Shown in pieces: positions 7,837 to 37,083 of a stretch of DNA of 55,055 nucleotides (position 1 is the stretch's first letter; every line of letters begins with the position of its first letter). Where the stretch lies: positions 1 to 55,055 of the forward strand of contig CALKKV010000020.1 in assembly GCA_937992195.1 (NCBI GenBank), written 5' to 3'. This DNA comes from an uncultured Gammaproteobacteria bacterium. Its GTDB lineage: Bacteria > Pseudomonadota > Gammaproteobacteria > Arenicellales > Poriferihabitantaceae. Both the position numbers and the translations under genes were made by a program. The notes under the pieces were generated by a model, which saw only the letters and a list, made by a program, of their open reading frames with translations, did not search any database and was not told where the DNA came from.

Positions 7837-7841
7837 GAGCG

Positions 7842-9191: not shown

Positions 9192-9216
9192 TGCTGTTCG
9201 AAATTAAAATTTACTT

Positions 9217-10641: not shown

Positions 10642-10687
10642 TTTTTGCCTCTTGTTGGTGACCCTCTGTTTATTGAGTCTGTTTGAT

Positions 10688-11275: not shown

Positions 11276-11509
11276 TCAGAGAATTTTACGTTTTGCGTAT
11301 TTGTACGACTTATTATCTACAGATAGACAGCCGCTGGAAATCCGGACGATTTGATCCAACACGCTCTGGTGTGCAGGAAAAGACCTGTTTCTTTGTTCGC
11401 AGGCTTTTTCCACCGACGCGGATGCAAGTCCGAAGACATAGCCGACTAATGGCATCGCCCATAACGCATGAAAGCCACTGCTCTCATGTATCTGCTCGTT
11501 GAATATCAC
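11276..11509 (-). CDS. possible small last cistron of the secretion operon
   Basis: A 77-residue open frame begins with GTG whose bases overlap the TGA stop of the SecA-like gene (GTGA), the arrangement of a translationally coupled gene. The product has a moderately hydrophobic patch (ALWAMPLVGYVFGLAS) and a basic tail KSYKYAKRKIL. I recognise no family. The coupling geometry is the only positive evidence; the frame could be fortuitous, and the region would otherwise simply be the gap between this operon and the Lrp operon. Confidence 0.25.
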   Translation of the reverse strand: MIFNEQIHESSGFHALWAMPLVGYVFGLASASVEKACEQRNRSFPAHQSVLDQIVRISSGCLSVDNKSYKYAKRKIL

Positions 11510-13431
11510 TCAACCACAACCTTCCCAGATATCTTAGAAATCAGGCCCTCCCTCCATTGCGAGTGCGACATCATATTGAGCCTCTTTTCAAAGTCCTTGG
11601 TATCATTGCGCTGTTGAATTGCAATGACATATTCAGCGATTGCATCAACGTCCCATCCACCATCTTTTCTTAAGGTTGGCCACTTTAGCTGGTTGGTATC
11701 TTCGAAAATCGTATCTTCTTTACAGCAGAAGATTCTCGCAATTCCCGGATCACCCTGTCTGGCGCAACGCCCAATCAACTGGTGATCGACTCTTCTTGAT
11801 CTATTGGGTTCAGTAACAATTACATACAAACCGCCAAGTTGTTTCACTTGAGGACTGAGAGGAATATCTGTACCTCTTCCCGCCATATTGGTGGCGACGG
11901 TTACCGCTTTTCTCTTACCTGCTTCGGCAACCAGCTCGGCTTCCGCTGCATCGTGTCTTGCGTTCAAAACATTATTCGCTATGCCATTTGCTTCGAGACG
12001 CTTGGCTAACTCTTCACTTTCGTGAACAGATTGCGTGCCTACGAGAACCGGCGCACCCTGTCTGTTAATTGTTTTAACCTGCTCGACCACACCATCCCAT
12101 TTTTCTTCGGTGGTATTGAAAAAAACAAGCGGATCATATTTTCTCTTCGACTCTTTGTGTAACGGAATACGCTTCACACCCATTCCAAAAATTTGATCCA
12201 GCTCATCCTCACAACCAACTGCGGTTCCCGTCATACCACAGCGATGCTGATAAAGACGAAAGAAATGATGCCGGGAAATACTCAACATAGACTGACTTTC
12301 TTCGGTGACAGTTACGCCTTCTTTACTTTCCACGGCTTGATGTAAGCCTGCACTCCAGGTTCGGTCTTCAAAACGTCTACCGGTAAAGGCATCAACAATC
12401 TGAATGGAACCATCAATTACAAGATAATCGACGTCGAGCAAGAAAAAATGTTTGGCACTGAGTGCGTTAGCGATATAGGTCTCCCATGGTCGGACCAAAC
12501 TGTTCTTTGTTGTACGATCTAAATAGCCAAGCATCTCCTGAACACCTTTCGCACTAAACTGGATACTTCTTGTCTTGATATCGACCAGATAGTGTTCACT
12601 CTCTATGAGCTGATTCGACACTTTTGATGCGAGAATATACGGCTCAGGTCTCGGATGCGCCTGGCCCGAAGACCCGCTTAAAATAAGCGCTGAACTCGCT
12701 TCATCAATCATCACGCTATCCGCTTCATCAATTACCGCAAAAGCATGACCGCGTTGTGTAGAGCTGTATTTTGGCGCCGATGCGCCTCGCAGTCGCGTCT
12801 GAAAGGTTGATCCGATTTTACGTTGAGGCCGGCTTTGCAACCTCATTTGATCTCTCAAATAGTCAAACCCGAAATCATTGCCCACACCATAGGTAATGTC
12901 CGCGCGATACGCTTTTGCTTTCTCTGCATCTGGCATACGTGTGGCAATAAAATTTGCCGAGAGACCTAGCAGCTCGTAGACAGGAGCCATGGTTTCAAAG
13001 TCGCGTTGTGCCAGATAGGCATTCACGGTCATAACATGTACTCCTTGCCCCCAAAGAGCAAGCAAACTTGCCGGCAACGTTGCGACCAGAGTTTTCCCTT
13101 CCCCTGTTGCCATTTCCGCAATATTTCCACGCACCATAGAAATGCCGGCTAATAGTTGTACATCATGATGAGCCATCTTAACCGTCCGCCAAGAGGCTTG
13201 TTTGATATTGGCAAAACCCTGAATAATCAAATCATCCGAGGGCGCGGTTTTTTCATCCAAAACCATACTCTGCGCCTTTTGCTTTAGCGCATCGAAGTTT
13301 TCTGCAATCGCTGAATCTGGTACCGACTTGAGAGAATCAAATCGTTGATTGATTTTCTTTACCAAAGCGAGGTCTGCTTCCGAAATCGCCGTATTCTTAC
13401 TTCGGAATCTTTTCCAGACCTTCCAGTCCAC
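11506..13431 (-). CDS. truncated SecA-like preprotein translocase ATPase
   Basis: A 641-residue DEAD-type motor related to SecA. Walker A is MATGEGKT at about 107-114, Walker B is VIDEAD at about 223-228, and the second RecA domain carries TNMAGRGTDI at about 504-513 and GRCARQGDPG at about 544-553. The preprotein cross-linking region lies between the two (about 240-375). Housekeeping SecA is about 900 residues; this one ends soon after nucleotide-binding domain 2, so the helical scaffold, helical wing and C-terminal zinc tail are missing or vestigial. It is therefore a paralogue, not the essential SecA. Start is GTG at 13431 with GAGGA seven bases upstream. As the last large gene of the giant-protein/TolC/HlyD operon, 15 bp after the M50 fusion gene, it is the only ATPase in the locus and so the probable motor for export. 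Confidence 0.88.
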   Translation of the reverse strand: MDWKVWKRFRSKNTAISEADLALVKKINQRFDSLKSVPDSAIAENFDALKQKAQSMVLDEKTAPSDDLIIQGFANIKQASWRTVKMAHHDVQLLAGISMVRGNIAEMATGEGKTLVATLPASLLALWGQGVHVMTVNAYLAQRDFETMAPVYELLGLSANFIATRMPDAEKAKAYRADITYGVGNDFGFDYLRDQMRLQSRPQRKIGSTFQTRLRGASAPKYSSTQRGHAFAVIDEADSVMIDEASSALILSGSSGQAHPRPEPYILASKVSNQLIESEHYLVDIKTRSIQFSAKGVQEMLGYLDRTTKNSLVRPWETYIANALSAKHFFLLDVDYLVIDGSIQIVDAFTGRRFEDRTWSAGLHQAVESKEGVTVTEESQSMLSISRHHFFRLYQHRCGMTGTAVGCEDELDQIFGMGVKRIPLHKESKRKYDPLVFFNTTEEKWDGVVEQVKTINRQGAPVLVGTQSVHESEELAKRLEANGIANNVLNARHDAAEAELVAEAGKRKAVTVATNMAGRGTDIPLSPQVKQLGGLYVIVTEPNRSRRVDHQLIGRCARQGDPGIARIFCCKEDTIFEDTNQLKWPTLRKDGGWDVDAIAEYVIAIQQRNDTKDFEKRLNMMSHSQWREGLISKISGKVVVE

Positions 13432-13446
13432 AACAGGTCCTCGCGG

Positions 13447-15594
13447 CTAGCTCGCTATCTGAGCGGTAATACTGGTCGCCCAGTCGCGAACCGAACGGAT
13501 CCAGAGAAAACCAAGAGAAGTGGCTGAACCTTGAAGACTGGACATACCCCGCTCACCCGCGCCAAGATTTTGATCGCTTGTACCCTCTAGTCTGCCCGTC
13601 ATCCAGAAATAGGGCTCTGTCATTTTGTAATCGCCATTCTCTGCGCTGATGACCGGCAGTGCGCCGCCGCCTAATGCGGTAAGAAACGGATTGGAAACCG
13701 TATCATCGGCAACCGGAGAAATAGCTTTTACCGTGGCGGTTAAGCTTTTTCTGCCTGGAAGATAGAACTCAATCTTATCCTCGACATCCACAGTGATACG
13801 ATTGATTTCGCGTTGCGGTATCGCAAGCCTTAGCTCGCGATCGTCTGAGCTCGCCACAGAAAGCAAAATATCAGAATTGGTCACATGGCGATCATACAAA
13901 TTACCCGCAGGCGGCATGATCACCTCGCCTTGATTTGTCGCAACAATCAATAACCCTTGTAGAAGTTTTTCACTATCCAGTATCTGGCTTTTCGCGGCAG
14001 TTTCTTGTTCTAAAAGCGCCTGATATTCCCCCAACTTCTTTTCGCTTAGAAGTTTTTTGCGTTCAATTTGTATCCTCGTCAGATTATTTCTTTGCTGTTC
14101 TACCGCCAACACTAATTCATCATTTTCCAGTCTTATTAGTGGATCACCGACCTCTACAATATCTCCGTCTTGCACCAAAATCTCAGCAATCTTTGCAGGG
14201 TATAACGTACGGTATTCTTTAACTTCTTCGAATTCAACCAGTCCATGAACGCTGATCGACTGCCTCCACTCAAACTGAAACAGACTAAAGTAAAGCACAC
14301 CAGCAAGCAGAGACATAACAGACACAAACCGGAGCACCTTTGGCTTCTCGTGGTCATTGCCAAAAAACAGATAGCGCAAAAATTTAAGTGCTGGATAAAT
14401 AACGATCACACCCACCGCGAGCATTGCAAATAAAATCCCGAAACCATGGAATAATGTGCTGGCAATAATAATCAATGTCGTGATCACCAGCATGCGCCAA
14501 ATAAAAGACAACACGCCATATATCTTGATAACAGTATCGTCTTTTCGACCTCTTTGCGGGAATTGGGTTGGCACACCCAGTAGGTATCTTCGACCCAGAT
14601 ACTTTACATAAGCACCGCCTTCCAAATACAGATTAGGTATATTGACCAGGTCAGAAAAAATATAATAGCCGTCAAATTTCATTAACGGATTTGCATTGAA
14701 TATCAGGGTATTAATACTGGCGATCAAAATGATGTTATAGCAAATATCTCGCAGCTGCCCGGGTTCTGAATCGGCCCAAATAAAAGCAGCAATTCCAGCG
14801 ATAAAGAACTCAATATAAATACCGGCAGCGGCCGTAAACATCCGGCGCCATCTGGAGTCAAATTTCCAGGAGCTCGTCGCATCGACATAACCAATCGGCG
14901 CCAGCAATATCATGATCACACCTGCTTCAGTGACGCGACCACCATAGTGTTTGCAAGCAATGCCGTGAAATAACTCGTGAATAAACTTCAGTACAACCCA
15001 TACAACAAGCAAAGATATCCAGTTCGACGTTGCCAGAACGCCGGATGCCTGTGTACTGAAACGTCCCAGATTACTTAAAATTTGAAACAGTCCACCCACC
15101 ACTACGACTCCCCAGATCAATACCAGGAGCGGAGAAAAGAAATAGCGCGTTAATGGTCGAATAAAACTTAAGAATTGGTCAGGGTTGCAGAGCGGAAAGC
15201 GCAAAAACATTGGATTCATTTTGCGCAAAAACTTTTGGTCTTCCTTTTTTAACCGCGCCTCAATAATCTGCTCAGGATCCATTTTTGACTCTGACTCCAA
15301 CAGATTCGATTCCATTGCCCAGTTCAACACAACGGCTGCCTCGCTTTCAGTCAGAGCGTCCTGGCCCAAACCTTGCGCAATCTGAATCAATGCCTCACCA
15401 ACTGTTGTTTTGCCATCGAGTAAACCCAACAAGCGATATTCAGGCTCTCCGATTCTGAAAAACTTATTCCTGACCGGATCTTCAACGATAAAGACCCTTT
15501 CTTTTCCTTCCTGATTAATCGTAATCGAAATATCGCCACGCATTCGCGGTCGCAAATGCACCAACTCCTTTACGTTGGTATCGAACTCTGTCAT
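13447..15594 (-). CDS. PqqD-like / M50 zinc metalloprotease / HlyD adaptor fusion
   Basis: A 715-residue inner-membrane protein with three parts. Residues about 25-97 resemble a PqqD-like peptide-binding domain (FFRIGEPEYRLLGLLDGKT ... LNWAMESNLLE). A multi-span membrane segment, about 148-445, is a site-2-protease (M50) domain with zinc motif HELFH at 206-210 and NANPLMKFDGYY at about 300-311. A periplasmic HlyD-like part follows (about 446-650): barrel-sandwich half AKIAEILVQDGDIVEVGDP, a short coiled coil around 495-545, and a beta-barrel region. Similar fusions occur next to export systems for peptides and are annotated as efflux adaptors. ATG at 15594 overlaps the preceding stop by 4 bp (ATGA). 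Possible role: bind the cargo leader, perhaps cut it, and form part of the conduit. Protease activity is supported by intact zinc ligands but untested. Confidence 0.85.
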   Translation of the reverse strand: MTEFDTNVKELVHLRPRMRGDISITINQEGKERVFIVEDPVRNKFFRIGEPEYRLLGLLDGKTTVGEALIQIAQGLGQDALTESEAAVVLNWAMESNLLESESKMDPEQIIEARLKKEDQKFLRKMNPMFLRFPLCNPDQFLSFIRPLTRYFFSPLLVLIWGVVVVGGLFQILSNLGRFSTQASGVLATSNWISLLVVWVVLKFIHELFHGIACKHYGGRVTEAGVIMILLAPIGYVDATSSWKFDSRWRRMFTAAAGIYIEFFIAGIAAFIWADSEPGQLRDICYNIILIASINTLIFNANPLMKFDGYYIFSDLVNIPNLYLEGGAYVKYLGRRYLLGVPTQFPQRGRKDDTVIKIYGVLSFIWRMLVITTLIIIASTLFHGFGILFAMLAVGVIVIYPALKFLRYLFFGNDHEKPKVLRFVSVMSLLAGVLYFSLFQFEWRQSISVHGLVEFEEVKEYRTLYPAKIAEILVQDGDIVEVGDPLIRLENDELVLAVEQQRNNLTRIQIERKKLLSEKKLGEYQALLEQETAAKSQILDSEKLLQGLLIVATNQGEVIMPPAGNLYDRHVTNSDILLSVASSDDRELRLAIPQREINRITVDVEDKIEFYLPGRKSLTATVKAISPVADDTVSNPFLTALGGGALPVISAENGDYKMTEPYFWMTGRLEGTSDQNLGAGERGMSSLQGSATSLGFLWIRSVRDWATSITAQIAS

Positions 15595-17507
15595 TTAATA
15601 GACCATCCAAACATCGCCCGAAGCCGGACATTGAGTTGTTCGTAGGCTTTATGAAACAGAATCCAGCCCAGTGGCTGGTCTTCTTTGACGATCGACGCTT
15701 CCCCTTTCATACCGGGACGAAGCAATTTGTTGCTGTTATCCAGATTGACGCGCGAAATGAAAACTGTGTCGGCGTCAGCAACGACGGCCCTCGGCTGTAT
15801 TTTCCCTAGATTGCTTTCCCAGGATATATCGGGCAGTGCGTCAATAAAGATTTCTATTGGCAGCTCGGCATCCACATGCCGAAAGTCATCAACTGAAATG
15901 GCTATTTCAGCATTTACCTGGTCCAGGGGCGCGACTTCAAAAATCGCATTGCCTTTTTGAATTAAGCTACCCTGCTGCCGTTCGATATCTCCGCTAATTA
16001 CGATTCCGCTGATCGGCGAGACCACCTGCAGGTTATTAATCCGACTTTCAAGAAGGTCAATTTCCAATCCGATACGATCCATTTCCAGGCGAGAGAGCTG
16101 GGCACCTTGGGTATCTCTTTCCGCGACTTTGAGGTCTTTCTCTTTCTTCGCTCTCGCCTCATCGGCGCGTAACGCATCAAGCTGCCACTGCAGTTCTCTG
16201 CCGTCGAACTCGGCCATCAGATCGCCTTTATTTACAACGTCACCCGGGTCAACAACAACGTGATTTAATACTGCATCAAATGATGCGGATACAATACGTT
16301 GCTCTACCGGCTGTATTAATAAACTACTGGTAATGCGATGTGGAACCGGAATAAACATGGCCGCAAAAAGCGCAACAGCCAAAAATAATGCGAACAGCTT
16401 TCCAGAACCCGGTTTTTTTCTTTGAAGCAATCCGCCGTAATCACGACCCCGAGAAAGTGCGTGGACTGCATTGGTAAGCGGCAGCCCCGCCGCCATAATT
16501 TGATTTTTAAAAATCGGTGCAGGCAATGACTCTACCCACCAAAAGGTAATAACCCCGAGACATTCTTCCTCGTCCAAATTCAACGGTAGTGAAAGAATGG
16601 TACGTGCTTTACAAAAATTGAAAAATTGCTGATGACCGCCGAACAAGTTTCGCTCCCAATCTACTTCCGTATCAGGCAGCTGAATCACATCGCCATAGCT
16701 GCCAGATTCATCAAAGCAAAGCTGAAGTAGTCGATGAAATTCACCGCGTTTATTCACTTCATCCGTACCCGACAGCTGTACTAACTCAAAACTTGACTTG
16801 CCTTTATTTTTCAATCCTATTGCGACGTGGTCTGCGCCACTTAGTTCGCTAAGCTCAGCAACCAAATCAACATAGGCACGATCTTTTTCGGTAGCTGCAT
16901 TTAAATTGCTCACCACTTCAATTAGGCCACCGGTGAAATTTGATTCCTGCATCAAATACCGATTCGCGTTGTTTTGCTCCCAAAGATTGACGTATCCGGA
17001 AAGCAACTGGGTGAACAAACTCCACTGGCCGGAAGCTAACGATCTATTATTAAATATCAAGCAAATCACTTCTTTCTGGCTGTCGCTGCGGCTGACTGGT
17101 GAAAGAACAATATCAACGGTCTTATCTTTGTCTAACGGAGTTTGAACGCTATATCCTTTTTGGCGACACTCGTTTGCTAAAGCATCGACTTTCTGCATCA
17201 TGTCCGGGATTTTATGCACCAAACCACGGGAGATTAACCGCGGTCCTAATCTCAGTCCGCCATCGTTATTGGCAACAAAAAATAGTGCACCTTCTGCATG
17301 TGACACACTGACAGCGTGTTGCAGAAGAGATAATAAGTAATCGTTTCGCGACTGATTGGATTCACTCAAGCGAAGCAGTTGACCATAGGTGGTCTGTGGA
17401 TCGAAAAGAGGAAGTTGGGTTTTTGCTAGTTGCTCGGTTAATGCACTTGTCTTGCCGGGCACAGTTTCAACACTGACGGTTTTTAATGGTGCTCCAATTT
17501 GTTCCAT
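15591..17507 (-). CDS. GAF-domain / HlyD-type membrane-fusion adaptor hybrid
   Basis: A 638-residue protein with a cytosolic N-terminal half and a periplasmic C-terminal half. Residues about 50-180 and 205-350 look like two GAF-type sensor folds (AEGALFFVANNDG ... EVICLIFNNR; DHVAIGLKNKG ... CLGVITFWW). One transmembrane helix (about 371-388, LFALFLAVALFAAMFIPV) is followed by a membrane-fusion-protein domain: lipoyl-like halves at about 405-435 (VLNHVVVDPGDVVNKGDLMAEFDG) and 490-530 (VVSPISGIVISGDIE), with a coiled coil of about 50 residues between them. A normal HlyD protein has only a short cytosolic tail, so the fused sensor half is unusual and may gate export. The stop codon overlaps the start of the M50 fusion. 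ATG start at 17507; a 131-bp gap separates it from the upstream adaptor gene. Confidence 0.82.
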   Translation of the reverse strand: MEQIGAPLKTVSVETVPGKTSALTEQLAKTQLPLFDPQTTYGQLLRLSESNQSRNDYLLSLLQHAVSVSHAEGALFFVANNDGGLRLGPRLISRGLVHKIPDMMQKVDALANECRQKGYSVQTPLDKDKTVDIVLSPVSRSDSQKEVICLIFNNRSLASGQWSLFTQLLSGYVNLWEQNNANRYLMQESNFTGGLIEVVSNLNAATEKDRAYVDLVAELSELSGADHVAIGLKNKGKSSFELVQLSGTDEVNKRGEFHRLLQLCFDESGSYGDVIQLPDTEVDWERNLFGGHQQFFNFCKARTILSLPLNLDEEECLGVITFWWVESLPAPIFKNQIMAAGLPLTNAVHALSRGRDYGGLLQRKKPGSGKLFALFLAVALFAAMFIPVPHRITSSLLIQPVEQRIVSASFDAVLNHVVVDPGDVVNKGDLMAEFDGRELQWQLDALRADEARAKKEKDLKVAERDTQGAQLSRLEMDRIGLEIDLLESRINNLQVVSPISGIVISGDIERQQGSLIQKGNAIFEVAPLDQVNAEIAISVDDFRHVDAELPIEIFIDALPDISWESNLGKIQPRAVVADADTVFISRVNLDNSNKLLRPGMKGEASIVKEDQPLGWILFHKAYEQLNVRLRAMFGWSIK

Positions 17508-17638
17508 TGGTCAGTGTTACCTCACATTTACGGTTGGTTAGCATCTTCAGAAGAACAAGCCAAGTTGACTACAGGGTTTTGCTGTTCTCAGTACTATTAG
17601 AAAGTATTATTTCGATGCCTTGCTGTTCTTAGGTCCAA

Positions 17639-18451
17639 TCACTCTAGCACCATTTTACCCGCTAGTCCGCTTCTCGCATCATTGGGTTGGTCTATAACCA
17701 AGGTTACCTTGGCGGTACCGCTGGTGGGATCGATTACCTCGGAAAGATACTCAACAACTGCTTCCAGCTCTTGATTGCCCTCGTCAACCACAAGCTTAAC
17801 CGATGCTCCCTCAGATAAATTTGAAGCTTCAGCGCTTGGAATATTCGTGACGAACTTTAATTTCTCAATATTCACCACCCGAATAAACGGACCCTGCGAA
17901 GCAGATACCAGCTCACCACTATCGCGGTTCACCGTCACGATTTCTCCATCTATCGGGGAACGAATATGATTTTGATTAATCTGGGCCTGAATTCTTTTGT
18001 ATTCAAGTTCCGCAACCAGCTGCTGCTCTTGCGCCCGAGTGACTTGTGTACTGGCAACACTTTCTTCCAACTCGGCTTTATTAAGCTCGTCTCTGCGGGC
18101 GTTTCCTGCCGCATGCAGTCTCTTGAATTCAGCCAGTTTTTGTTTCGCACTTTCCCATTCTGCCTTGGCGGCGAGAATAGAAGCTTGTGAGTCCTTCTTG
18201 GCTTTCGCAACTTTCAGGGATGCGCCAATCAAGCGAAAGTCAATCACCGCCACGACATCACCCTTGGCAACCTGATCGCCTTCTTTTACTTTCACAGACT
18301 GCAGAATGCCAGTCTCTGATGACGCGATATCTACGGTTTCGATTGGCTCAAGAAAACCTTCATAGCCAAAGCTCGGCAACGGCATCGTCAAAATAATAAC
18401 GAGCGTTCCAGTTCCGAACATCTTGGTATTTACACTTTTCATACGAGCCAA
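17639..18451 (-). CDS. periplasmic HlyD/RND-type membrane-fusion adaptor
   Basis: A 270-residue exported adaptor. A signal peptide (about 1-29, hydrophobic TGTLVIILTMPLPSFG) leads into a short family protein: first lipoyl half IASSETGILQSVKVKEGDQVAKGDVVAVID, coiled-coil hairpin about 75-160, second lipoyl half HIRSPIDGEIVTVNRDSGELV, then a beta-barrel domain. It lacks a lipobox and a transmembrane anchor other than the signal segment. Adaptors of this kind bridge an inner-membrane pump and TolC. Start appears to be TTG at 18451 with AAGG seven bases upstream; an ATG at 18442 is the alternative and makes little difference. It follows the TolC-like gene by 27 bp. No RND or ABC pump is adjacent, so the partner is probably the SecA/M50/GAF machine of the same operon. 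Confidence 0.85.
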   Translation of the reverse strand: MARMKSVNTKMFGTGTLVIILTMPLPSFGYEGFLEPIETVDIASSETGILQSVKVKEGDQVAKGDVVAVIDFRLIGASLKVAKAKKDSQASILAAKAEWESAKQKLAEFKRLHAAGNARRDELNKAELEESVASTQVTRAQEQQLVAELEYKRIQAQINQNHIRSPIDGEIVTVNRDSGELVSASQGPFIRVVNIEKLKFVTNIPSAEASNLSEGASVKLVVDEGNQELEAVVEYLSEVIDPTSGTAKVTLVIDQPNDARSGLAGKMVLE

Positions 18452-18478
18452 TCTCTCACCTTAGATCGCTATTTTACT

Positions 18479-20431: not shown

Positions 20432-20439
20432 TCTCTCGA

Positions 20440-23400: not shown

Positions 23401-26400
23401 ATTAAATCGAAGTATTACCGTCTCACCGGGTGGAATCGTTCCGCCGGTGAATTCAATCAAATCACCCGTTGCTGAGTAGATAAATGCTGCAGCCGTGCCC
23501 GTTGGAGTTGGGACATTTACCGCGGATCCTGTATCGATAAATCCTGAAGCAACATTTGCAGTAAGGTCATCGGTAACCAAAACATCATAGGCGTGGGCTG
23601 ATCCAGTATTTTCAACCTCTAGTTCAACCTGAATCGTCTCGCCTGCAACCGCAGTAAAGATTGGTGTTCCTGTAACCGGATCAACAAAGTTCTTGGTAAT
23701 TTCAAGTACAGGCTCTACAACTTCAACCGTAGCGCTATCTTCGAAATCTTCACCACCATAAGTCAGTGTCGCAACGTTCTCTTTATCATTCGATGTTGGA
23801 ACCCCAGGAACCTCCTGGGCATTCACAGGGTCATTCACCACAATCGCGGTAACGTTCACCACGATTTGCTGCTCACTCAGATCACCGTCGTCATCCAGAT
23901 CAATGACTGAGATGGTACCGATATTGAATGTTATGGCTGCATCTCCCGGAACACCGATAATTCCCGTAGCACTAAGTGTATCGCCAACCATTAAGTCACT
24001 ATTGAAGATCTCACTACCAATACTAATTACTTCAGCCGAAACCAAATCAAAATTAGTTGGCAAAGTATCTGTTAACTGCGCCAGAACCGCCTCACCCGCA
24101 TCATCCAAACCATCATTGTTGATATCGGTTTCAGGTAATGTAACAACCAGTTGATAGGTTACTGTTTCACCGATCGTGACATCGATCAATGGATCAAACT
24201 GGCCGCTACCTGTATCAGCTACGCTGGTATCAATAATGGTTTTTTCTAAGCCTGGATCACCAACAATAATGTCAGTATCCTCGTCCTCAACGTCGCGTTC
24301 TTCCGGATTATCGCCGGGCAAACTATCGCCGATCACCGTGGCGGTATTTTCCGTAGTGAGGCCGTCAAAGCCGTCTACTGCCAGCTCCACGTCGGTAACG
24401 GTAACGTCAAACTCGAAGATAAGTATCTCATCAGGTGCAATAAAATCGTCGGGAGCTGCGTTAAAACTCGCCGCATCATCACCAAGTCCAGCCGCACCTG
24501 GCGCAGGATTAAAAGTGAAGCCCGCTGGAACTGGTAGCACAGGAGTCGGACTAACAAAAACCGGCTGATCGATATTATATGGATCAGACACAACCACATC
24601 GTAAGCGTTTGCAGTTCCGGTATTTTCAACAACCAGTCTGATGCGAACCGTATCTCCCACGGTTATCGGATCAGTAATCGGATCACCCGTCGCTGGATCA
24701 ACAAACTCCTTATCAATAGTGAGTTCCGGCACAATGACATCGATCGTTTCTTCGTCTTCAATCACTTCACCAGCCCCGGGATTATCCGGATCCGCGGCGA
24801 AGTTAAGGCTTGCCGTGTTAGTCAGTTCGTCGCCATCGGCGTTATCAGGCAGATTTTTAACCACTGCCGTGATCTGTACACGGATAATGTTATTTGCAGG
24901 GTCATTGTCACCAGGTACGGTAACCACCCCAAAATCAAACACTACCTGATCATCAAAACCGTCGCCACTTTCATCCGTAACGATGACATTCGAATCGGTT
25001 TCAGTTGCTCCCTGAAGCAGACCATTTGTACTAGTGATACCGGCACCAACAAATGAAACTTCTGCACCTGTCACTTCCAGCACCCCATCCGGGTCTGACA
25101 ATGGAGGCAGGGTATCTGTCACCAATACAGGCGTTGTACCTTCCTGCAGGGTAACAACGAGTTCATAAGTCACTGTTTCGCCAATGGTCAGATCAGGTTC
25201 ACCGTCGCCGCCATCGCCGTGAATCGAGGTGCTGACGATGTTTTTCTCGAACTCAGGTACGCCAGTGAAAAACTCGGCGGGATCATCGTCGCTGTAAACG
25301 TCATCTGGATCAGAAGGATCACCACGCTCATTTCCTTCTCCATCATTTTCATGACCAGGCGGCAAGCTGCTGTATTCTATTTCTCCAGTGTTTTCTACAA
25401 GCGCGTTTGGCGTAATCGCGTCAGCAATCTGGGCAGTAACCGTAATGGTTACAATTTCATTAAAATTAATCGTAAATGGATTGACGGTTTCAATCGCATC
25501 GCCGGCGGCATTCACAGCGATATCGCCGGGCTGCACACCGTTAGGCCCCGACGCAGCGCCAGAGGAAACAGCACTCACAAACGCAACGTTAATTAACTCG
25601 GGCGGGATCGCGTCGCTGAAGTTGACGTCATGTGCATCAGTGGAGCTGTCACCGGTATGGCTAATCACAAATGTGTAGGTTACCGTATCGCCTGCGTTCA
25701 GTGGTCCTGCGGCAACGCCATCTGCTAATCCGTTTATTGTTTTCACAATCTCCAGATCTGGCTCAATAACTTCGATGTCTTCTGCATCCACCGTATCCGT
25801 CATCTGCTCAACTGTGTTGCCCTCTTCGTCGGTGGTTTCAAAAGTAAACAACGCAGAGTTATCCAACACTTCGCCATCGACATTAGAAGGAATATCGACC
25901 ACAACAACTCTGTATTCAATAATAATCTGGTCGAGTCCTTGATCCACCCCAGTTACAGGCGCCGCTCCGGCATTATCACCTGTGGCAAGAATATCGCCAA
26001 AACTAAATGTGATGCCCTGACCAACAGTCGAATCACCTGTAAGCGCTGTGGGGATCGCTGTTTCATCTTCTAAATCAACAGGAGATGCTCCTGAGCCGAC
26101 AACATTTGAGCCATTGGCAGTTCCGGTTATCGAAACAATATCGACGAACTCCAAACCGGGAGTTAAGCTATCAACAATTTCAGCGTTATCGAATGAGCCT
26201 TCTGGCACATCAATCGTAATGCGGTAAGTCACAATCTCACCAATGGTCGCCTGATTTTCAGCATTGGAATCAGAGTCAACGTCAGACCCGACTAGCTCTT
26301 TCGCTATTTCTGGACCTGGAACCGTAATATCCTCAGCAGGATCAGAGTCTGAATAATCCCGCTCGCCCTGATCTTCGACAAAATCAGAGCGGTCGTCTTC

Positions 26401-29400
26401 ATCGCCAGGGTCAGCCTGTTCATCTAGCGAGCTGTAGTTAATCTCAGCTTCGTTGGAAATCACATCCCCTGGCTCTACTGAATCTTCTAGAACACCGGTA
26501 ATCGTGATCGTAATCACCCTTCCCGGGTCAGGCAAAATTGGTAGATCGATTGTGTTGACCGGTAGTCCAGCGGAATCTGTATCAGCATCGGTATTTCCTC
26601 CGGTGGCAGAAAATTGCAATGCACCGTTAGTCCCGGCACCTGCATCTATCTCTAGATCAGCAGTCGTCAAAACACCAAGACTATCTACGACAGTGACATT
26701 GGTACCCGCTCCACCGAATACAACACCAGAGAAATCCACCTGATCAGGAAGCTCATCATAAAGGCTTACATCAAATGCATCGGACTCACTATCACCTGTA
26801 TGCTGAATCGTAATGGTATAGGTGACTTCGTCTCCAGCATCACCTGGGCCATCAACACTAACATCCTTCAAAACTTCAAGATCAGGTTCAATTACCTGTA
26901 TTTCACCGGCGCCATCAACACCACTGGTTTGGTCTTCACCGGCGCCATTTTGCCAGGTGAGCTCGGCGGCATTTGTTAAACTAGTACCGTCCAAGCCAGG
27001 TCCTTCTCCGACATTGCTGCCTTCGTTCGTGACCATCACGGTGTACTGCAACACGATCTGTTCAAGAATCGTGTTGTCATTATTCATATTATCGATATCA
27101 CCAAGGTCAATAGTAATCAAATCACCACCACCGGTTCCACCATCAACGGTGTAGCTCACTATCCCACCAGGCGTGGTAACCGGAGCCCCCAACGCTTGGG
27201 TTGGCAGATTTGCTATGGTGAGATTAGGAACCGCGGAAGTGTTGACTACTGCACCAGTGGTTGTGTCGAGTTGCTGGGTGAACAGATTGTCAATGCTCAC
27301 AAGTGCCAGCCCTGGCGCAAGCGAATCTTGTATCGCCGCACCTGCAGTCATACTTTCCGCTAAGGTTATCACTACCTGATAAGTAACCAGTTCTCCAATG
27401 GTCGCCTCTGCGCCGCTGTTAATACCGTCGGTATCATCTGGTGCTGCAAGTTGGCCATCTGCTGTCGCATCTGGCTCATTGGTCAACTCGGTGTTAACCA
27501 AAAACTTCTCAATTTCGTTGGAACCAACAATCACTCGCGCTGGATCTTCGTCTTCATAAGGATTTAGCTCGCCCCCCGCCGGCGCATTATCGCCACCACC
27601 GCGCTCTACATCCTCTTGATCAGGTTCAAGAAAGTCGGTTCCAGCTGGCGTATCGGGGTAGCTTGACCAATCAATCTCCGCGTTGTTATCAAAAACATCT
27701 CCTGCGGTAACACCCGGCGCAATTACGCCGGTAACAACGATTTCAATCTGGTCATTTAAATCTAGGGTAAAGGGCTGGATGGTTGAAAGCGTATTGCCAG
27801 CTAAGTCAAAAATCACCCCGATCAGATCAGCACCTGCCAAATTGGTGGCACTTACAAGATTAAGACTAGCGAGATCCAGTTGGGGCGGGAGCACGTCAAG
27901 AAAATTCACATCGCTGGCATCGGTCGTACTAGTAGTAGTGTGATCAATGACAATGGTATAAGTAACTAAATCACCGACATCACCAGCAACGGTATCTGGA
28001 TCAGTTTGACTATTATCCGTTCCAGTCGAGGTAGCACCGGCAATGTCTACCGTTTTTACTACCTCAAGCAAAGGCTCAAGAATGACAACCTCTTCTGCGC
28101 TGTCTGGATCAGACTCTTGGGTATCGCCGTTTGAGTCTTCAAACTCCAGGGATGCAGAGTTATTTCTCATCGCTCCCTGAACATTTGACACATCATTGGT
28201 AACCATTACCGTGTAGCTAATGGTGATCTGTTCAGGTGTCGTATTGTCGGTGTCGGTGTTGGTAATTGTGCCAAGACTCAAGCCAAAACTACTCGACCCC
28301 GTATCGACAAAATTGTAAGTGAGACCTGCACCCGGACTGGTTAACGGTGCATCAAATCCAGCAAAGTCTGCCCCCCAAAGATCACTCGTTAGAGCACCAG
28401 GATTGCTTACAGTAATCGAATCGATTGATGACAACTCCAGTCCACCATCAAGGCTGTCATTCAAAACAGCATTGAGCGTTTGACCTTCTGGGATAGTGAC
28501 AGTGACTTGGTAAGTCAGCCTTTCACCAATTACTACCTCATTGGCTCCACCATTATTCGGCTCGTCTAATTCGGTTCCGATCAGCTCTTTTTCAACAGAC
28601 GGTGCAGTGGTTGTCACAGTTGCATCATCGGTTAAATCAGCCGGGTCATCTAAATCTGCCCGGTTATTGTCGTCATTTCTGGCGGGATCATCTTCGGCAG
28701 TTTGAAAATACTCTTCGATTGTTGCGGTATTGGTGAAAACGTCTCCAGCGACAACCTCATCGCCACCTGCAGCCGGATCGTTGTCAAGCTGCAAATCGTA
28801 GGTGATAATAAGCAGCTCATCACCATCGACAACTTCCTGAACCTCACTGGGATCGTCGTTGCCGGGATTTGGATCAGTTAGGATTTCATCCGAGTCCGCA
28901 ATCTCGTTGCCGGCCGCATCCAGAGTCCGGCCATCTATCTCGGCGGCTATTTCAACCATCAAAACGCCGCCCACTACACTGACATCCAAATCACTGTCAG
29001 CAACTCTGTCGCCGTTTCCGTAATAAACCTGAATATTTAGTCCGGCAATCAGCGCTGCACTATCTGTAGAGTCGGCCGGCAATATAAAACCGTCTGTCCC
29101 AGCCGCCTGCGCTGGTAGAGAGTCAGAAATCAGAATATCCTGGGCGTCGCCCTGGCCGGTATTTTGCACCGTGAGCGCATAGCGCACCCAATCCGCACCG
29201 TCGACATCGGTTGCATTGGCATCGAGAACCCCGAGGCCACCGGCAAGATCATCTAAGGTTACGCCGTCGGCATCAAATGCAACTGAATCCCCTGCGGCAG
29301 GACCTGCACCAGGATCGGTATTGTCGTAAGTGACGCCATAATCCGGCCCGGCAGGACTCACAGAACCATTCGAAGCATTGGCGCCACCAGAGAGCGCGAC

Positions 29401-32400
29401 GACCCCTTTGGTCAGAGTTAACGCTGGCGCAACATAGGCGATTTGAACAATGGCTTCTTCAGTAAAAGTTTCACCTTCGGAGTTATCGAATGACAGCTGG
29501 GTCTGGTTGGTTAAGAACAATCCATCTGCAAATGCTTCGTCCTGTACCGTTGCATTAAGCAGCAAATCCAGAACCACAGGCTCAGAACCATCACCGCCCA
29601 GATCGGTTTCTTCGAAGGTACCGAAATTAAAAAACAGGGCATTCGCCGCCGTATTTAGCGTTACTCCAGGATAAGAACCGTCTGTCGGATGCGGTGACCC
29701 TATCGGCGGCGTGACGATATTGAGATCTGCGCCAACCGTGTGCAGACTGTAATCTTCGCCGTAGAATATTTGGCCGCCAGTTGAGCCTGCCAACGCAGCT
29801 TGAACGGCAGCTTCTCCAGGCGGGGTGCCGGCCGGCAGGGTATTACTGAAGGTCATGCCTGTAAACTCTGTCGCGTCATAGACTGGTAACGGCAGAAAGT
29901 CTGAAACAACGAAATTCTCACCGTTGGCACTCGGCACTTCTACGCGCAGTCGATAGGTAATGACATCTCCCGGCTGAATTCCGGCGATAATCGCTTCGTC
30001 GGATTCATTTACGTCCTCATCACCGTTCGGGCTTTGAACCTCTACTCCATTTACCGCAAAGATGAATTTCTCGATAGTGGGCAATCCAATCTCAAGCTCA
30101 ACGGCAGTATCATCGACTAACGTATTGCCGCTTCCGGTAAACGTGCCATCACCGTCGGTAATATCTCCTGATTCACCGCTGATTTCCGCATCATTTGAAA
30201 TGTCATCTCCAGAGTTAACCGCATTATCACCGGGTGCATCGGTAAAATCTTCTAGCACCTGAGAATAATAGGTTAAGGTGACTGTCGTAGCGCCCGGACC
30301 CAATCTTGGAGGCACCGGCACCGTTACTTCTGTTTCGCTGGGATCTTCACTGACGCCATTGAGTGAGGCATTTAAATCTCCCACTAAAACACCATCTCCT
30401 CCGAGATCAACCAGCTGATCAGAAATATTAAAGTCAATGGTTGTTTCACCAGTTGCTCCATTGAAGACAGGCGTATAGAAAGCGCCGGTAAAATCGTTTA
30501 ACCCGAGTGCGCTATCGTCCGTGTTGCCGCCAAAATTGGTGTCATTATTTACCACTAAAGTGGGGTTGGTATTGGGAACGGTACCTGCATCGACGAACGC
30601 CTGACCGTCGCTCAAGACATCATTAAAGACAAGATCATCAAACGCATGATAATCAGATACCTGGATTTCCACCGTCCATAGTAAAAGATCGCCGGGGGTA
30701 AGCTCAGTAGCGGGGCCGAGAATCGGATTGCCTGCTCCGTCAAAACCGGTAACAACCTGTGCCGTTTTTTGCGTGGTAAGGTTTTGCACATCGGTCAGTA
30801 CATCACCATCATCCAACCCGCCGTCAGGGCCACCCACATCACTATCGTCTATATCCTGAACGGTGCTGGTATTGCCATTGCCATCGGTATAGTCGCCGCT
30901 TACTGTTGATTCATTTTGCGACGGCACATTGTTGCTGGTTTCCGGCACAATATCTTCGAACCAAACAAAGTAGGTAATCTCTACTTCACCGGACCCAGCA
31001 GCTGGACCGGTAACACCGGCGCCACCTGTCACGCTCCCAAGATCCACTTCCAGGAGGTTACCGGTCAAAGTCACCGTCGGGGCTCCGGTAAAAGAACCGC
31101 CATTGATAGTGCTTACTGAGACATCCGCAGCAGTACCAATAAAATTAGCATTTGCAGGTAAAAAGTCCTGCACAACCACATTGTCAACGGTTTCAAATTC
31201 CGCAACATTCACCGTGACCGTAAATTCAACAGGATAATTCGGGCCGGTTGGTGTTTCTGATTCAGGCAGATCATTTCGCTTGTCGATTTGAATAACCGAA
31301 GGCGTAGTTGAATTCTCAACAGTTGTACCGATATGCGGGTCATCGTCTCCATTCTCGTCACAACCCAGCAGAAAGCCTGGGGTAGATGACATATTAATCT
31401 GTTGCCCAACCACCGCATCGTCATTAAAACTGGCGTCTAAATCGATGGTCGCTGTTGGCTGATCCGCCACAAAACTGCCAAACGGCAGTTTGAAGGAATA
31501 CCATGTGGCGCCATCCGCAAAACCAGTGCCATCTGGCAAAGGTAGATCAGTGGTACCCCCAGCATCACCCTCGAAGGGGTGCGTGGTAATAGCGGTACCG
31601 GGAGGAGATTCCCATTGTCCAGCAGCAGCATTCCAGGTTGCCGCTACGGTAAAATCAACAACAGGTGTGCCCAAATAACTGCCGCCGCTTATATCGATAC
31701 CCGGGTCAACTACAAAATCTATAAATGGCGCAAAGCCAGTGTCTGCGCCAGTATTATCGAAGGTCACCGAAATCTCTGGTTCTTCATCGATCATCACATC
31801 CGGGGCAGTATCGATCGTGCTAGTGGCTTCGGCATCTGGCAGTGTGCCGCTCCAGTTGCCGTCGACCTGCACTGCGGATTGGGCTGTGATTTCTCCAACT
31901 GCGAATTCAAACTCCCAGTTTGCATTGTGATCCGCTGTGCCGGTGTCATCGGTTGACGCGGCAACATCAGCACCCGTAATTTCCGCTAACTGCTCGACAA
32001 AAGCCTGACCTTCTGAGGTTTCAGCGACGTTACAGCCATAAAGCAGAATATCAGCATCCCCGGTAAGGAATTCACTCCATGTTCCGAGCAAGTCGGCGTG
32101 ACTGGCAAGGTTATCTGACTCAAGCGTATCGTCACCGAGATACAGCTTTCCATCATCACCGTGAGAGATGATATGCAAAGATTCGACTTCCCCTGCAAAG
32201 CGCAGAATATCGGTGATCTGTTCGAGACCACTGCTGTCATCATCCAGAAAAACGATTTGTGGTGGAGTTGTGCCTTCTGCTCTTTGAGAAAGGATGTCAG
32301 AAACCAGTAAATCGGGGTCATCAACTTTGGAATCAATAATAATCAATTCCCTTGGTGCGCTGTCTTCAGAATCGGTAGCACTTTCCAGATTATCCAGCTC

Positions 32401-32913
32401 CGATGAAACGGAGACATCGACTGCATCCGGATCTGTTTCGTCAGTATTTGTCGAACCAACGCTAAGTAAATCTTCACCATCTACCAGGTCTGATGACAGA
32501 TCTTCCAGATTTGCTGCGGCAACTTGATCCGCAACGTCACCCGCCGCATCAACCTGTGAAATGGTCTCCACAGAGCCTGCATCGGTTTGTTCATTTGCCT
32601 CAGCAGCACTGATTGTTTCATCGACTACTTCGCCATCTGCAACCTGCGCATCGCTTTCACCGCTCTCCTCAACGGCCAGATCATCCTCTGATGCTGCAGC
32701 TATTTCTTCCTGCTCCTCAGCAGCGCCCTGGGCATCATCCTGCTGGGGTTGTTCTTCGACAGCGACCGCCTCTTCTTCGGCAACCTGCGCTTCGGCATCG
32801 ACCTCGGCACTTTCTGGCTCTGGAGCAAGGGTGGCGTCCCAAAGTATCCTCTCTTCGAGGGATTGGAGAATTAACGAACGTCGGCGTTTAATATTCTTTC
32901 CCTTAATCAACAT
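20440..32913 (-). CDS. giant LEPR-XLL/DUF4347/DUF11-repeat surface protein
   Basis: About 4157 residues using the ATG at 32913, which has GGAAG and AAAGG upstream; an in-frame start at 32961 would add 16 residues. The N-terminus is basic (KNIKRRRSL) and then carries LEERILWDATLAPEP at about 19-33, a variant of the LEPR-XLL motif found at the start of giant exported proteins; no classical hydrophobic signal peptide is seen. An acidic low-complexity region follows, then DUF4347 at about 187-357 with a His (SHG, about 251) and Cys (LYGCN, about 294) placed like a caspase-type dyad. From about 500 to 3950 come roughly 18 DUF11-like beta domains of two alternating kinds, linked by Asp-rich loops suggestive of calcium binding. 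The C-terminus contains an Ig-like domain. Probably a secreted adhesin or matrix protein exported by the downstream gene products. Confidence 0.88.
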   Translation of the reverse strand: MLIKGKNIKRRRSLILQSLEERILWDATLAPEPESAEVDAEAQVAEEEAVAVEEQPQQDDAQGAAEEQEEIAAASEDDLAVEESGESDAQVADGEVVDETISAAEANEQTDAGSVETISQVDAAGDVADQVAAANLEDLSSDLVDGEDLLSVGSTNTDETDPDAVDVSVSSELDNLESATDSEDSAPRELIIIDSKVDDPDLLVSDILSQRAEGTTPPQIVFLDDDSSGLEQITDILRFAGEVESLHIISHGDDGKLYLGDDTLESDNLASHADLLGTWSEFLTGDADILLYGCNVAETSEGQAFVEQLAEITGADVAASTDDTGTADHNANWEFEFAVGEITAQSAVQVDGNWSGTLPDAEATSTIDTAPDVMIDEEPEISVTFDNTGADTGFAPFIDFVVDPGIDISGGSYLGTPVVDFTVAATWNAAAGQWESPPGTAITTHPFEGDAGGTTDLPLPDGTGFADGATWYSFKLPFGSFVADQPTATIDLDASFNDDAVVGQQINMSSTPGFLLGCDENGDDDPHIGTTVENSTTPSVIQIDKRNDLPESETPTGPNYPVEFTVTVNVAEFETVDNVVVQDFLPANANFIGTAADVSVSTINGGSFTGAPTVTLTGNLLEVDLGSVTGGAGVTGPAAGSGEVEITYFVWFEDIVPETSNNVPSQNESTVSGDYTDGNGNTSTVQDIDDSDVGGPDGGLDDGDVLTDVQNLTTQKTAQVVTGFDGAGNPILGPATELTPGDLLLWTVEIQVSDYHAFDDLVFNDVLSDGQAFVDAGTVPNTNPTLVVNNDTNFGGNTDDSALGLNDFTGAFYTPVFNGATGETTIDFNISDQLVDLGGDGVLVGDLNASLNGVSEDPSETEVTVPVPPRLGPGATTVTLTYYSQVLEDFTDAPGDNAVNSGDDISNDAEISGESGDITDGDGTFTGSGNTLVDDTAVELEIGLPTIEKFIFAVNGVEVQSPNGDEDVNESDEAIIAGIQPGDVITYRLRVEVPSANGENFVVSDFLPLPVYDATEFTGMTFSNTLPAGTPPGEAAVQAALAGSTGGQIFYGEDYSLHTVGADLNIVTPPIGSPHPTDGSYPGVTLNTAANALFFNFGTFEETDLGGDGSEPVVLDLLLNATVQDEAFADGLFLTNQTQLSFDNSEGETFTEEAIVQIAYVAPALTLTKGVVALSGGANASNGSVSPAGPDYGVTYDNTDPGAGPAAGDSVAFDADGVTLDDLAGGLGVLDANATDVDGADWVRYALTVQNTGQGDAQDILISDSLPAQAAGTDGFILPADSTDSAALIAGLNIQVYYGNGDRVADSDLDVSVVGGVLMVEIAAEIDGRTLDAAGNEIADSDEILTDPNPGNDDPSEVQEVVDGDELLIITYDLQLDNDPAAGGDEVVAGDVFTNTATIEEYFQTAEDDPARNDDNNRADLDDPADLTDDATVTTTAPSVEKELIGTELDEPNNGGANEVVIGERLTYQVTVTIPEGQTLNAVLNDSLDGGLELSSIDSITVSNPGALTSDLWGADFAGFDAPLTSPGAGLTYNFVDTGSSSFGLSLGTITNTDTDNTTPEQITISYTVMVTNDVSNVQGAMRNNSASLEFEDSNGDTQESDPDSAEEVVILEPLLEVVKTVDIAGATSTGTDNSQTDPDTVAGDVGDLVTYTIVIDHTTTSTTDASDVNFLDVLPPQLDLASLNLVSATNLAGADLIGVIFDLAGNTLSTIQPFTLDLNDQIEIVVTGVIAPGVTAGDVFDNNAEIDWSSYPDTPAGTDFLEPDQEDVERGGGDNAPAGGELNPYEDEDPARVIVGSNEIEKFLVNTELTNEPDATADGQLAAPDDTDGINSGAEATIGELVTYQVVITLAESMTAGAAIQDSLAPGLALVSIDNLFTQQLDTTTGAVVNTSAVPNLTIANLPTQALGAPVTTPGGIVSYTVDGGTGGGDLITIDLGDIDNMNNDNTILEQIVLQYTVMVTNEGSNVGEGPGLDGTSLTNAAELTWQNGAGEDQTSGVDGAGEIQVIEPDLEVLKDVSVDGPGDAGDEVTYTITIQHTGDSESDAFDVSLYDELPDQVDFSGVVFGGAGTNVTVVDSLGVLTTADLEIDAGAGTNGALQFSATGGNTDADTDSAGLPVNTIDLPILPDPGRVITITITGVLEDSVEPGDVISNEAEINYSSLDEQADPGDEDDRSDFVEDQGERDYSDSDPAEDITVPGPEIAKELVGSDVDSDSNAENQATIGEIVTYRITIDVPEGSFDNAEIVDSLTPGLEFVDIVSITGTANGSNVVGSGASPVDLEDETAIPTALTGDSTVGQGITFSFGDILATGDNAGAAPVTGVDQGLDQIIIEYRVVVVDIPSNVDGEVLDNSALFTFETTDEEGNTVEQMTDTVDAEDIEVIEPDLEIVKTINGLADGVAAGPLNAGDTVTYTFVISHTGDSSTDAHDVNFSDAIPPELINVAFVSAVSSGAASGPNGVQPGDIAVNAAGDAIETVNPFTINFNEIVTITVTAQIADAITPNALVENTGEIEYSSLPPGHENDGEGNERGDPSDPDDVYSDDDPAEFFTGVPEFEKNIVSTSIHGDGGDGEPDLTIGETVTYELVVTLQEGTTPVLVTDTLPPLSDPDGVLEVTGAEVSFVGAGITSTNGLLQGATETDSNVIVTDESGDGFDDQVVFDFGVVTVPGDNDPANNIIRVQITAVVKNLPDNADGDELTNTASLNFAADPDNPGAGEVIEDEETIDVIVPELTIDKEFVDPATGDPITDPITVGDTVRIRLVVENTGTANAYDVVVSDPYNIDQPVFVSPTPVLPVPAGFTFNPAPGAAGLGDDAASFNAAPDDFIAPDEILIFEFDVTVTDVELAVDGFDGLTTENTATVIGDSLPGDNPEERDVEDEDTDIIVGDPGLEKTIIDTSVADTGSGQFDPLIDVTIGETVTYQLVVTLPETDINNDGLDDAGEAVLAQLTDTLPTNFDLVSAEVISIGSEIFNSDLMVGDTLSATGIIGVPGDAAITFNIGTISVIDLDDDGDLSEQQIVVNVTAIVVNDPVNAQEVPGVPTSNDKENVATLTYGGEDFEDSATVEVVEPVLEITKNFVDPVTGTPIFTAVAGETIQVELEVENTGSAHAYDVLVTDDLTANVASGFIDTGSAVNVPTPTGTAAAFIYSATGDLIEFTGGTIPPGETVILRFNITLAGDLALGPNDTIENTADVEGDSLPPGDPNEDQQRGTEDDDTDVLFALPAIVKEVADSFVGVPPGDADLEATSNAGTGNGQFDPTLPDLTIGEVVTYEITITIPTTFDDPDLTTVGTSINDVLPAGMALVDARVVAIGGNTTAGDISGGEFFDSGNASVTGGPASSGLAIGDSLVAGSANITGTIGGGSVLFDFGGLAVNDMDTLAGEEQTIVVQVDAVVLDDPINFAGVQQTNGATLTWEETPDEPIILDDTAVVEIVEPEIEIAKTFIDPVTGADVYTVGTGDQVVVVLEVTNSGTSNAYDTLVTDEIDLTNWTIVGPQLTPPGFVYSVEDGANPVPTDTVTFTMTSSGNATDPDFFIEPGETVRIEFVLEYTGAADAGGQIDNTAEATADSIPDDEVVDIPGLDTERDTSDDDSDFVYEDPGLEKVVLQGLNPDTGSDQHDPTLVDLSVGEQVVYELTVTLPESLLDAAGQPIPVDVNLIDDLPDGFALVGAEIINIGSAVSASDLAVGDTLSVLDPTTLGAATPAATDDSDISSSDINLPDGFDDQVVFSFGGVTVADVDDLSLQTITIQVTAVVMDLEPENTDGAVQTNDATLEFFGTPTGDPANPFDTTTPIVIEDSADVEIVEPELEIAKVFLNASGTADVETVTSGDTVTVQLEITNSGTGPAYDVVVSDPLDASQFNIGTISPASVPPGFTFSVTDNVVTFTLDSSAGVPGDPTLVVLPGQTVVLSFTVQVTQDIGPETAVNTATVDGDSAPGDNPFDRDEPTQEATDELNIRPVPDPPEVIINIEDPIAPIPAAVEAPEPFIFVYDVFDLLRDEFDELFQRIRDDIQTELPKTPVHYMATGITEHGSNVTMIVYDESGAILGYTSTLADTAGNWVFSLPQVVLDKSPHHIEVQITPASHNESSSGEFNTRVYFTPATDARAVHYKGLQVGDVIAEKADSIMESIHQGNQTPFGKPGEDWNHPYEFLGTANVENI

Positions 32914-36898: not shown

Positions 36899-37020
36899 AT
36901 TACTTCTAGTTTTAATTAGCGGGGTGTTTCACTATCCAGGCACAAGATGATCTACCAATCCAGGACATCCGCCGGTCTACGTATTAAACGACGACATCTT
37001 GAGCCAGGTTTAAGGCGTAT

Positions 37021-37038
37021 TCCTGAATCCATTCAGGA
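37021..37038. repeat. 18-bp palindrome in tauA-tauB gap
   Basis: TCCTGAAT and ATTCAGGA are inverted copies separated by two bases. In the minus-strand transcript this is the stem-loop nearest tauB. It may act as an RNA stability or attenuation element with the second hairpin at 37059-37083. Confidence 0.4.
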
Positions 37039-37058
37039 GCGTTATTAAGTGTTAGTCA

Positions 37059-37083
37059 GTGGGCCGCAAAGATTGCGGCCCAC
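37059..37083 (-). terminator. strong GC-rich stem-loop just after tauA (attenuator or mRNA-stabilising hairpin)
   Basis: GTGGGCCGCAA (37059-37069) and TTGCGGCCCAC (37073-37083) form an 11-bp stem with a 3-base loop about 24 bases after the tauA stop in the transcript direction. No U-run follows in that direction, so full termination is unlikely. Such hairpins after binding-protein genes usually protect the upstream message and lower expression of the ATPase and permease. Confidence 0.5.

Follow-up and report, generated by a model that had tools for sequence, protein, structure and literature searches.

A candidate N-terminal-leader exporter for a giant adhesin-like protein in an uncultured gammaproteobacterium

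The window analysed here is the whole stretch of 55,055 nucleotides of contig CALKKV010000020.1 (assembly GCA_937992195.1, positions 1 to 55,055) from an uncultured gammaproteobacterium. It contains six adjoining minus-strand genes, which probably (we put the probability at roughly 0.58) encode a giant adhesin-like protein together with its own exporter, predicted to act through an N-terminal leader and to use a truncated SecA as an optional booster. The constant parts of the system are the leader, a short motif of the LEPR type (family NF012209), and a protein that fuses a putative PqqD-like/RRE part, an M50 intramembrane protease and an HlyD adaptor, hereafter M50-HlyD. In the genomes compared, these two parts are tied to each other in presence, gene order and sequence flavour. 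An earlier reading of the window from its letters (the sequence-only reading) had placed a SecA-like motor at the center of a secretion system; the six-gene locus it described is confirmed, and its interpretation is partly supported.

Overall organization of the locus

In transcription order, the six minus-strand genes encode the giant protein (20440..32913; 4,157 amino acids (aa) from the ATG at 32913, with an alternative TTG-started frame extending to 32961), a TolC-like/OEP outer-membrane channel (18479..20431; 650 aa; PF02321, 94.9 bits), a short HlyD protein, which is a periplasmic adaptor of the HlyD/RND MFP type (17639..18451; 270 aa; TIGR01730, 115 bits, over the cut-off), a longer HlyD adaptor with a putative GAF-like N-terminal part (15591..17507; 638 aa; PF16576, 65 bits), the M50-HlyD protein (13447..15594; 715 aa) and a SecA paralogue (11506..13431; 641 aa; PF07517 at 301 bits, PF21090 and PF01043). 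Hydropathy gives signal-like N-termini to the channel and the short adaptor, and one membrane-spanning-like stretch to the longer adaptor. The coordinates of these open reading frames (ORFs) and their profile matches agree with the six adjoining genes of the sequence-only reading. The distances along transcription are 8, 27, 131, -4 and 15 bp; of the tight spacing with 4-bp overlaps noted earlier, a single overlap (15591-15594) stands, but the remaining distances are gaps.

The window holds 53 ORFs of at least 100 aa, many of them overlapping, and the Pfam scan covered 23. Among these 23, no ATP-binding cassette (ABC) exporter was found at the locus (the rest of the genome was not searched for ABC exporters), the only ABC pair, at 34180-36898 with a BPD_transp_1 permease, being of importer type. 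TpsB and BamA gave zero matches in the same ORFs, and no second SecY was present among them. Within this scope, the locus therefore lacks an ABC exporter, TpsB and BamA, as had been proposed.

The giant protein contains a DUF4347 domain (31867..32346, minus strand; PF14252, 162.7 and 170 bits in separate scans, cut-off 24.6), five stretches of the isopeptide-forming RrgB_K2N_iso_D2 (TIGR04226), DUF11 repeats and DUF7619. It is acidic (Asp+Glu 18.9%), has two Cys residues and gives zero matches to GGxGxD (RTX) repeats. The earlier claim that the cargo has no classical signal peptide is upheld, as no hydrophobic signal was found in residues 1-80 (maximum 15-residue hydropathy 0.34). The LEPR-XLL-like leader LILQSLEERILWDATLAPEPES occupies residues 14-35 (32809..32874, minus strand), with KRRRS just before it. 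The sequence-only reading had given this protein the LEPR-XLL label; of two matches to NF012209 in the whole genome the leader is the better, but its 12.7 bits (genome-wide E 0.67) fall under the cut-off of 17.

Leader and M50-HlyD occur together

The gene set recurs in other genomes. Two samples were compared, 249 Pseudomonadota (phylum sample) and 274 Gammaproteobacteria (class sample), with some genomes common to both; G-numbers label genomes, and C- and L-numbers label contigs and loci. In the phylum sample, NF012209 (LEPR) was found in 44 genomes, M50-HlyD in 80 and both in 43 (Fisher 8e-25), so that M50-HlyD is present in 43 of the 44 LEPR genomes versus 37 of the 205 others. Counted by genus, all 26 LEPR genera are among the 42 M50-HlyD genera of 132 in total (p 7e-17). 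In the class sample, M50-HlyD accompanies 16 of 18 LEPR genomes (E<=1e-3) versus 24 of 256 others. The sequence-only reading had suggested a search for co-occurrence beyond chance, and these counts lie beyond background.

Genomic linkage points the same way. Of the 71 LEPR ORFs, at least 33 lie no more than 10 kb from an M50-HlyD gene; the count is a minimum, as it used 70 typed M50-HlyD rows among the matches listed. If each 4.2-Mb genome is assumed to hold 2.5 copies, chance would give about 1.6. With this frequent adjacency, the proposal that the genes form a conserved set with giant LEPR-type proteins is borne out. The LEPR ORFs have a median length of 3,741 aa, 52 of the 71 exceed 1,500 aa, and the longest reaches 19,427 aa (these are open frames, some cut at contig ends). 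Genome G284 encodes four LEPR ORFs of 11,649-15,434 aa (on C1, C17, C25 and C29), each with an M50-HlyD gene of its own less than 6 kb away and a SecA-like gene adjoining that gene. Contig C1 of G278 encodes giants of 14,920 and 15,251 aa, each again accompanied by nearby M50-HlyD and SecA-like genes of its own. Every LEPR ORF found in these two genomes has an M50-HlyD gene beside it.

DUF4347 proteins served as a control. M50-HlyD is present in 18 of 20 genomes with motif-bearing copies (G206, G258 and G264 were missed by the regular expression and read as motif-bearing by eye) versus none of the six genomes with motif-less copies only. Three of these six (G034, G128 and G186; L142, L136 and L148) show, by eye, a hydrophobic signal-peptide-like start. 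The control left out G193 and G265, which are cut off, and G077, which has a motif-less DUF4347 protein, an LEPR protein and the fusion.

Leader flavour follows the M50-HlyD tree

The M50-HlyD profile scores are bimodal, and genomes were assigned by this score to a SecA type (>480 bits) or a sister type. The usual motif is E-x-LEPR-x-LLSAD or near it for cargos next to SecA-type genes and ALEPR-xxx-DAA for those next to sister-type genes. At the fourth position after the arginine (R+4), 28 of the 29 cargos that neighbour SecA-type genes have S, A or N, and D is found in all 16 that neighbour sister-type genes. The sole exception is the window itself, whose leader reads LEERILWDAT with D at R+4, as is typical of the SecA-less type, yet whose locus keeps the SecA gene. 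The 45 motifs are those of cargos beside an M50-HlyD gene (that of G404 at 10.5 kb); two distant matches on the same contig (609 kb and 36 kb) were left out, as was G056, where a split sister-type gene lies close to a DUF4347 protein with LENRIVLDAAA, again with D.

In the M50-HlyD tree, the window protein pairs with that of G177 (support 100/99) and branches off between the two main types of exporter. The G177 cargo, on another contig, reads LEDRILLDAN, and the G177 genome has no second SecA. Placed on a 34-row tree, the D label is explained by a single change (99/96; 98% of bootstraps); shuffled labels need 7.4 on average, and none of 500 shuffles is as low. Since the D label follows this tree with a single change, and since D is common to G177, which lacks a second SecA, and to the window, which has the SecA gene, the leader tracks M50-HlyD rather than SecA. 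The 34 rows are a subset of 56; the other 22 were dropped because no cargo beside them was looked at, because their genome mixes the types or because they are additional copies. In 13 of the 34 (G009, G052, G071, G077, G090, G106, G163, G177, G179, G273, G116, G119 and the window genome's own C74), the cargo lies elsewhere in the genome or more than 10 kb away. The full 56-row tree, in which G060 sits on a very long branch, needs two changes for the two types, not one.

The M50-HlyD fusion protein

The M50 part carries the zinc motif HExxH at residues 206-210 (14965..14979, minus strand). H206, E207, H210 and D308 are invariant in all 56 M50-HlyD sequences compared, and therefore catalysis, beyond a mere pore role, is likely kept. 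The N-terminal part matches PqqD (PF05402) in 8 of 12 aligned sequences, and the longer HlyD protein matches GAF in 7 of 9 (both at E<=0.1). The PqqD-like and GAF labels of the sequence-only reading thus hold for relatives, but the window copies themselves do not score in Pfam. The structural alignment of the M50-HlyD model covered the HlyD part only and says nothing on the RRE or M50 fold.

Over residues 25-399, the window protein matches the daptide leader peptidase family NF041824 at 169.6 bits. According to the available part of the daptide report (PMC10036551), MpaP is an RRE-dependent intramembrane peptidase that cleaves off a leader with the conserved motif ELExMEAP. An M50 intramembrane peptidase is common to both systems, as is an RRE-like part insofar as relatives of the window protein match PqqD, and ELExMEAP resembles LExLEPR when compared by eye; the window peptidase differs in being fused to an HlyD adaptor, its cargo has thousands of residues, and its score lies under the family cut-off of 300. 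A review, in the portion accessible, describes EpeP, an M50 protein thought to both cut and export its peptide, whose deletion leaves some production.

The SecA paralogue is a frequent partner, not a core part

The motor core of the SecA paralogue is intact: the motor domain, the preprotein cross-linking domain, the motor motifs and part of the scaffold helix are kept. SecA_SW gave no Pfam match in this protein, and its structural model (predicted local distance difference test score, pLDDT, 88) aligns to Bacillus subtilis SecA only up to residues 609-616, in agreement with the earlier description of a truncated SecA-like ATPase. We take this point to precede the helical wing and the two-helix finger, so both would be missing from the paralogue. 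It differs from SecA2 accessory translocases in this early stop and in having no second SecY beside it among the 23 scanned ORFs.

Secondary SecAs were told from canonical ones by ORF length, neighbourhood and tree; separation by profile score was tried and rejected, as the scores overlap. In the SecA tree, 39 secondary and 16 canonical proteins (the window genome's own included) are split by one branch with support 100/99. The examples, alignments and tree were drawn from the contig-scan matches listed, many of which are canonical SecAs.

A second SecA is present in 17 of 22 gammaproteobacterial and 27 of 29 further genomes of the SecA type, compared with 1 of 14 (class sample) and 1 of 17 (further) of the sister type (Fisher 8e-5 and 2e-9). 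It was undetected in 7 of 51 SecA-type and 29 of 31 sister-type genomes, the seven having one SecA_DEAD gene only. LEPR-type cargos are present in all seven, and the sister-type loci looked at keep them as well; readable sister-type loci contain HlyD genes and, in several, an OEP gene and an LEPR-type protein. Being common in one type and rare in the other, SecA often accompanies one exporter type but does not belong to the core. SecA as the defining part was rejected on these counts, and the central claim of the sequence-only reading, a SecA motor, is weakened by them.

The further SecA-type genomes are 29 of 30 (>480 bits; G426 left out), and the further others are 17 of 48, picked from the matches listed. 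The 14 class sister-type genomes exclude G153 (a contig-edge fragment) and G004, G025 and G216 (weak partial matches). Two SecA_DEAD pieces at contig ends of G100 were counted as one gene, a weak partial second match in G482 (30.8 bits) was not counted, and G235 and G464 gave no SecA_DEAD at all. The first SecA scoring took at most four candidates per genome, so absences were re-tested with PF07517; in G052 and G094, contig breaks in the module make the missing SecA less sure. In G060 (L223 5113-10446), a divergent SecA-like protein of 573 aa (SecA_DEAD, 99 bits) adjoins the long-branch M50-HlyD, with a tyrosinase-domain gene beside.

These counts bear on the least unlikely of the alternatives, the one suggested by the sequence-only reading and by Kamneva, Poudel and Ward (2015): export cannot run without the SecA paralogue as its motor, the M50 membrane bundle stands in for the pore of an ABC transporter, and the leader does no more than engage SecA. 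We consider this unlikely, because a second SecA goes undetected in the 7 of 51 and 29 of 31 genomes given above, because the leader flavour tracks M50-HlyD (G177 and the window share both branch and D), and because the two-helix finger and wing are missing, even though the motor core itself is preserved.

Proposed mechanism and its alternatives

The MpaP and EpeP precedents, together with the invariant M50 residues, lead us to propose the following route. The LExLEPR-type leader of the giant would be bound by the RRE (PqqD)-like part of M50-HlyD and cut by its M50 part. To reach the cell surface, the unfolded chain would then cross the inner membrane, either via SecYEG or alongside the membrane bundle of M50, and traverse the three HlyD adaptors and the TolC channel, while the truncated SecA would probably give an optional ATP-driven push. 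More tentatively, and at somewhat less than even odds, such loci may represent a separate secretion class, in which an RRE-guided intramembrane protease fused to HlyD reads and cuts the LEPR leader and feeds giants (ORFs of up to 19,427 aa) through TolC without an ABC exporter. SecA would be a replaceable booster recruited to one branch, and leader and protease would have evolved together, giving two or more matched codes.

Several points weigh against this leader-dependent route. That the leader is a secretion signal, as well as RRE-like binding, M50 cleavage, export, passage of the inner membrane and the SecA push, we infer rather than observe. The window leader, under the NF012209 cut-off, is not significant alone; the window M50-HlyD and longer HlyD proteins give no Pfam PqqD or GAF score; and the sister-type loci have no visible motor. 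Clear LEPR proteins were found with no fusion detected in G472 of the phylum sample (one search) and in G076 and G213 of the class sample. The G213 genome has a completeness rating of 100%; its LEPR giant (L330 2-3121), an open frame of 7,373 aa, bears the motif LEQRLLLSTS, and the genome gives matches to the HlyD part only. Weaker LEPR matches (E<=0.01, short frames) in G120 and G237 and motif-bearing DUF4347 proteins in G123 and G245 are also without a detected fusion; conversely, the fusion is present in G077, which has a DUF4347 protein lacking the motif, and 37 of the 80 M50-HlyD genomes have no NF012209 match at E<=0.01. Some of these 37, the window's own genome being among similar cases, hold cargos missed by the NF012209 model. 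Contig ends or unrelated genes surround the other exceptions G076, G472, G245 and G123, and some assemblies are fragmented, so single absences are weak. A CusBA-type pump lies near the LEPR giant of G213.

The LEPR proteins of G213, G076 and G472 would need another exit, which agrees with a second alternative: LEPR could be a sorting or anchoring tag, an N-terminal counterpart of LPXTG or PEP-CTERM, which M50 would process once SecYEG or some other exporter had moved the protein across, with the adaptors serving a different purpose. The intact protease, the short conserved motif and the RRE-like domain fit such tag processing, yet this alternative appears improbable: the window cargo has no signal peptide at its N-terminus, the fusion is covalently an HlyD adaptor, most readable loci have other HlyD genes and several have OEP genes, and no fusion is present in the six genomes whose DUF4347 proteins all lack the motif (three with signal-peptide-like N-termini by eye). 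It is very improbable that co-occurrence merely reflects a shared lifestyle or joint transfer and that the giant leaves through a type I ABC exporter elsewhere in a genome whose remainder was not searched for one: one published LEPR-XLL giant does carry C-terminal RTX domains, according to the text available, but the window giant has no GGxGxD repeat, hitchhiking hardly explains a residue-level match between leader and M50-HlyD branch, and each LEPR ORF found in G284 and G278 is accompanied by an M50-HlyD gene.

Relation to published systems

The machine half of the leader-dependent system has been published. Kamneva, Poudel and Ward (2015; PMC4452313) reported, in the text accessible, a conserved module of SecA_DEAD without SecA_SW, M50-HlyD, GAF-HlyD, HlyD and sometimes OEP. 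Secretion was proposed there, with SecA as the ATPase and M50 as a possible pore, and the wider biological role was called completely unknown. Methylobacterium extorquens AM1 is given there as having four of the genes. On this description, the window matches the module in its SecA_DEAD without SecA_SW, the neighbouring M50-HlyD and the further HlyD and OEP genes; for the GAF-HlyD neighbour, HlyD is matched in the window and GAF is not scored (relatives, 7 of 9). The distinct route proposed by the sequence-only reading is thus not new as to its machinery and SecA-driven secretion, judging from the accessible text. That text names no cargo, leader or SecA-less sister type, nor does it discuss RRE-like recognition.

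The cargo assignment was not found in print: in literature searches that reached few subscription papers, nothing links the LEPR motif to the secondary SecA_DEAD module. The window leader resembles NF012209 (LEPR-8K/LEPR-XLL) as a short N-terminal motif on a very long protein and differs in scoring under the cut-off; no exporter is connected to the motif in the literature within reach. The locus shares HlyD adaptors and a TolC channel with type I secretion (HlyB/HlyD/TolC), but it has no ABC exporter, its candidate signal is N-terminal instead of C-terminal, and its cargo has no RTX repeats.

The 2015 machine without a substrate and the orphan motif of giant proteins seem to belong together as parts of a single system, which gains a cargo, a candidate signal and a candidate reader. 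If true, the kind of leader-peptide recognition familiar from small peptide natural products would also apply to proteins thousands of residues long, and in loci with no second SecA detected the energy source for export would call for an explanation.

Further genes of the genome and window

Outside the window, the same genome encodes three further DUF4347 proteins (C77, C43 and C13; L093 3909-14402, L094 1-3042 and L095 1-4812; longest ORF 3,498 aa); their leaders are of the sister type, with LEKRQMFDA (NLLLTLEKRQMFDA) or FDG at the N-terminus. On contig C74 (L210 1534-7675) lies another M50-HlyD gene, likewise of the SecA-less sister type. It adjoins a gene for a Glyco_transf_41/Glyco_tranf_2_5 fusion and another glycosyltransferase gene, and glycosylation of these trans cargos by the C74 enzymes is possible.

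Within the window, an ABC permease, an ATPase and an NMT1-like binding protein, probably a nutrient importer, are encoded upstream of the giant gene (34180-38120). A gene resembling a transposase (HTH_29, rve_3) is located at 4508-5542. Downstream of the module and on the same strand (6826-11209) are genes for an AsnC-type regulator, a glutamine-synthetase-like protein, a Rieske-domain protein and a 2-hydroxyacid dehydrogenase.

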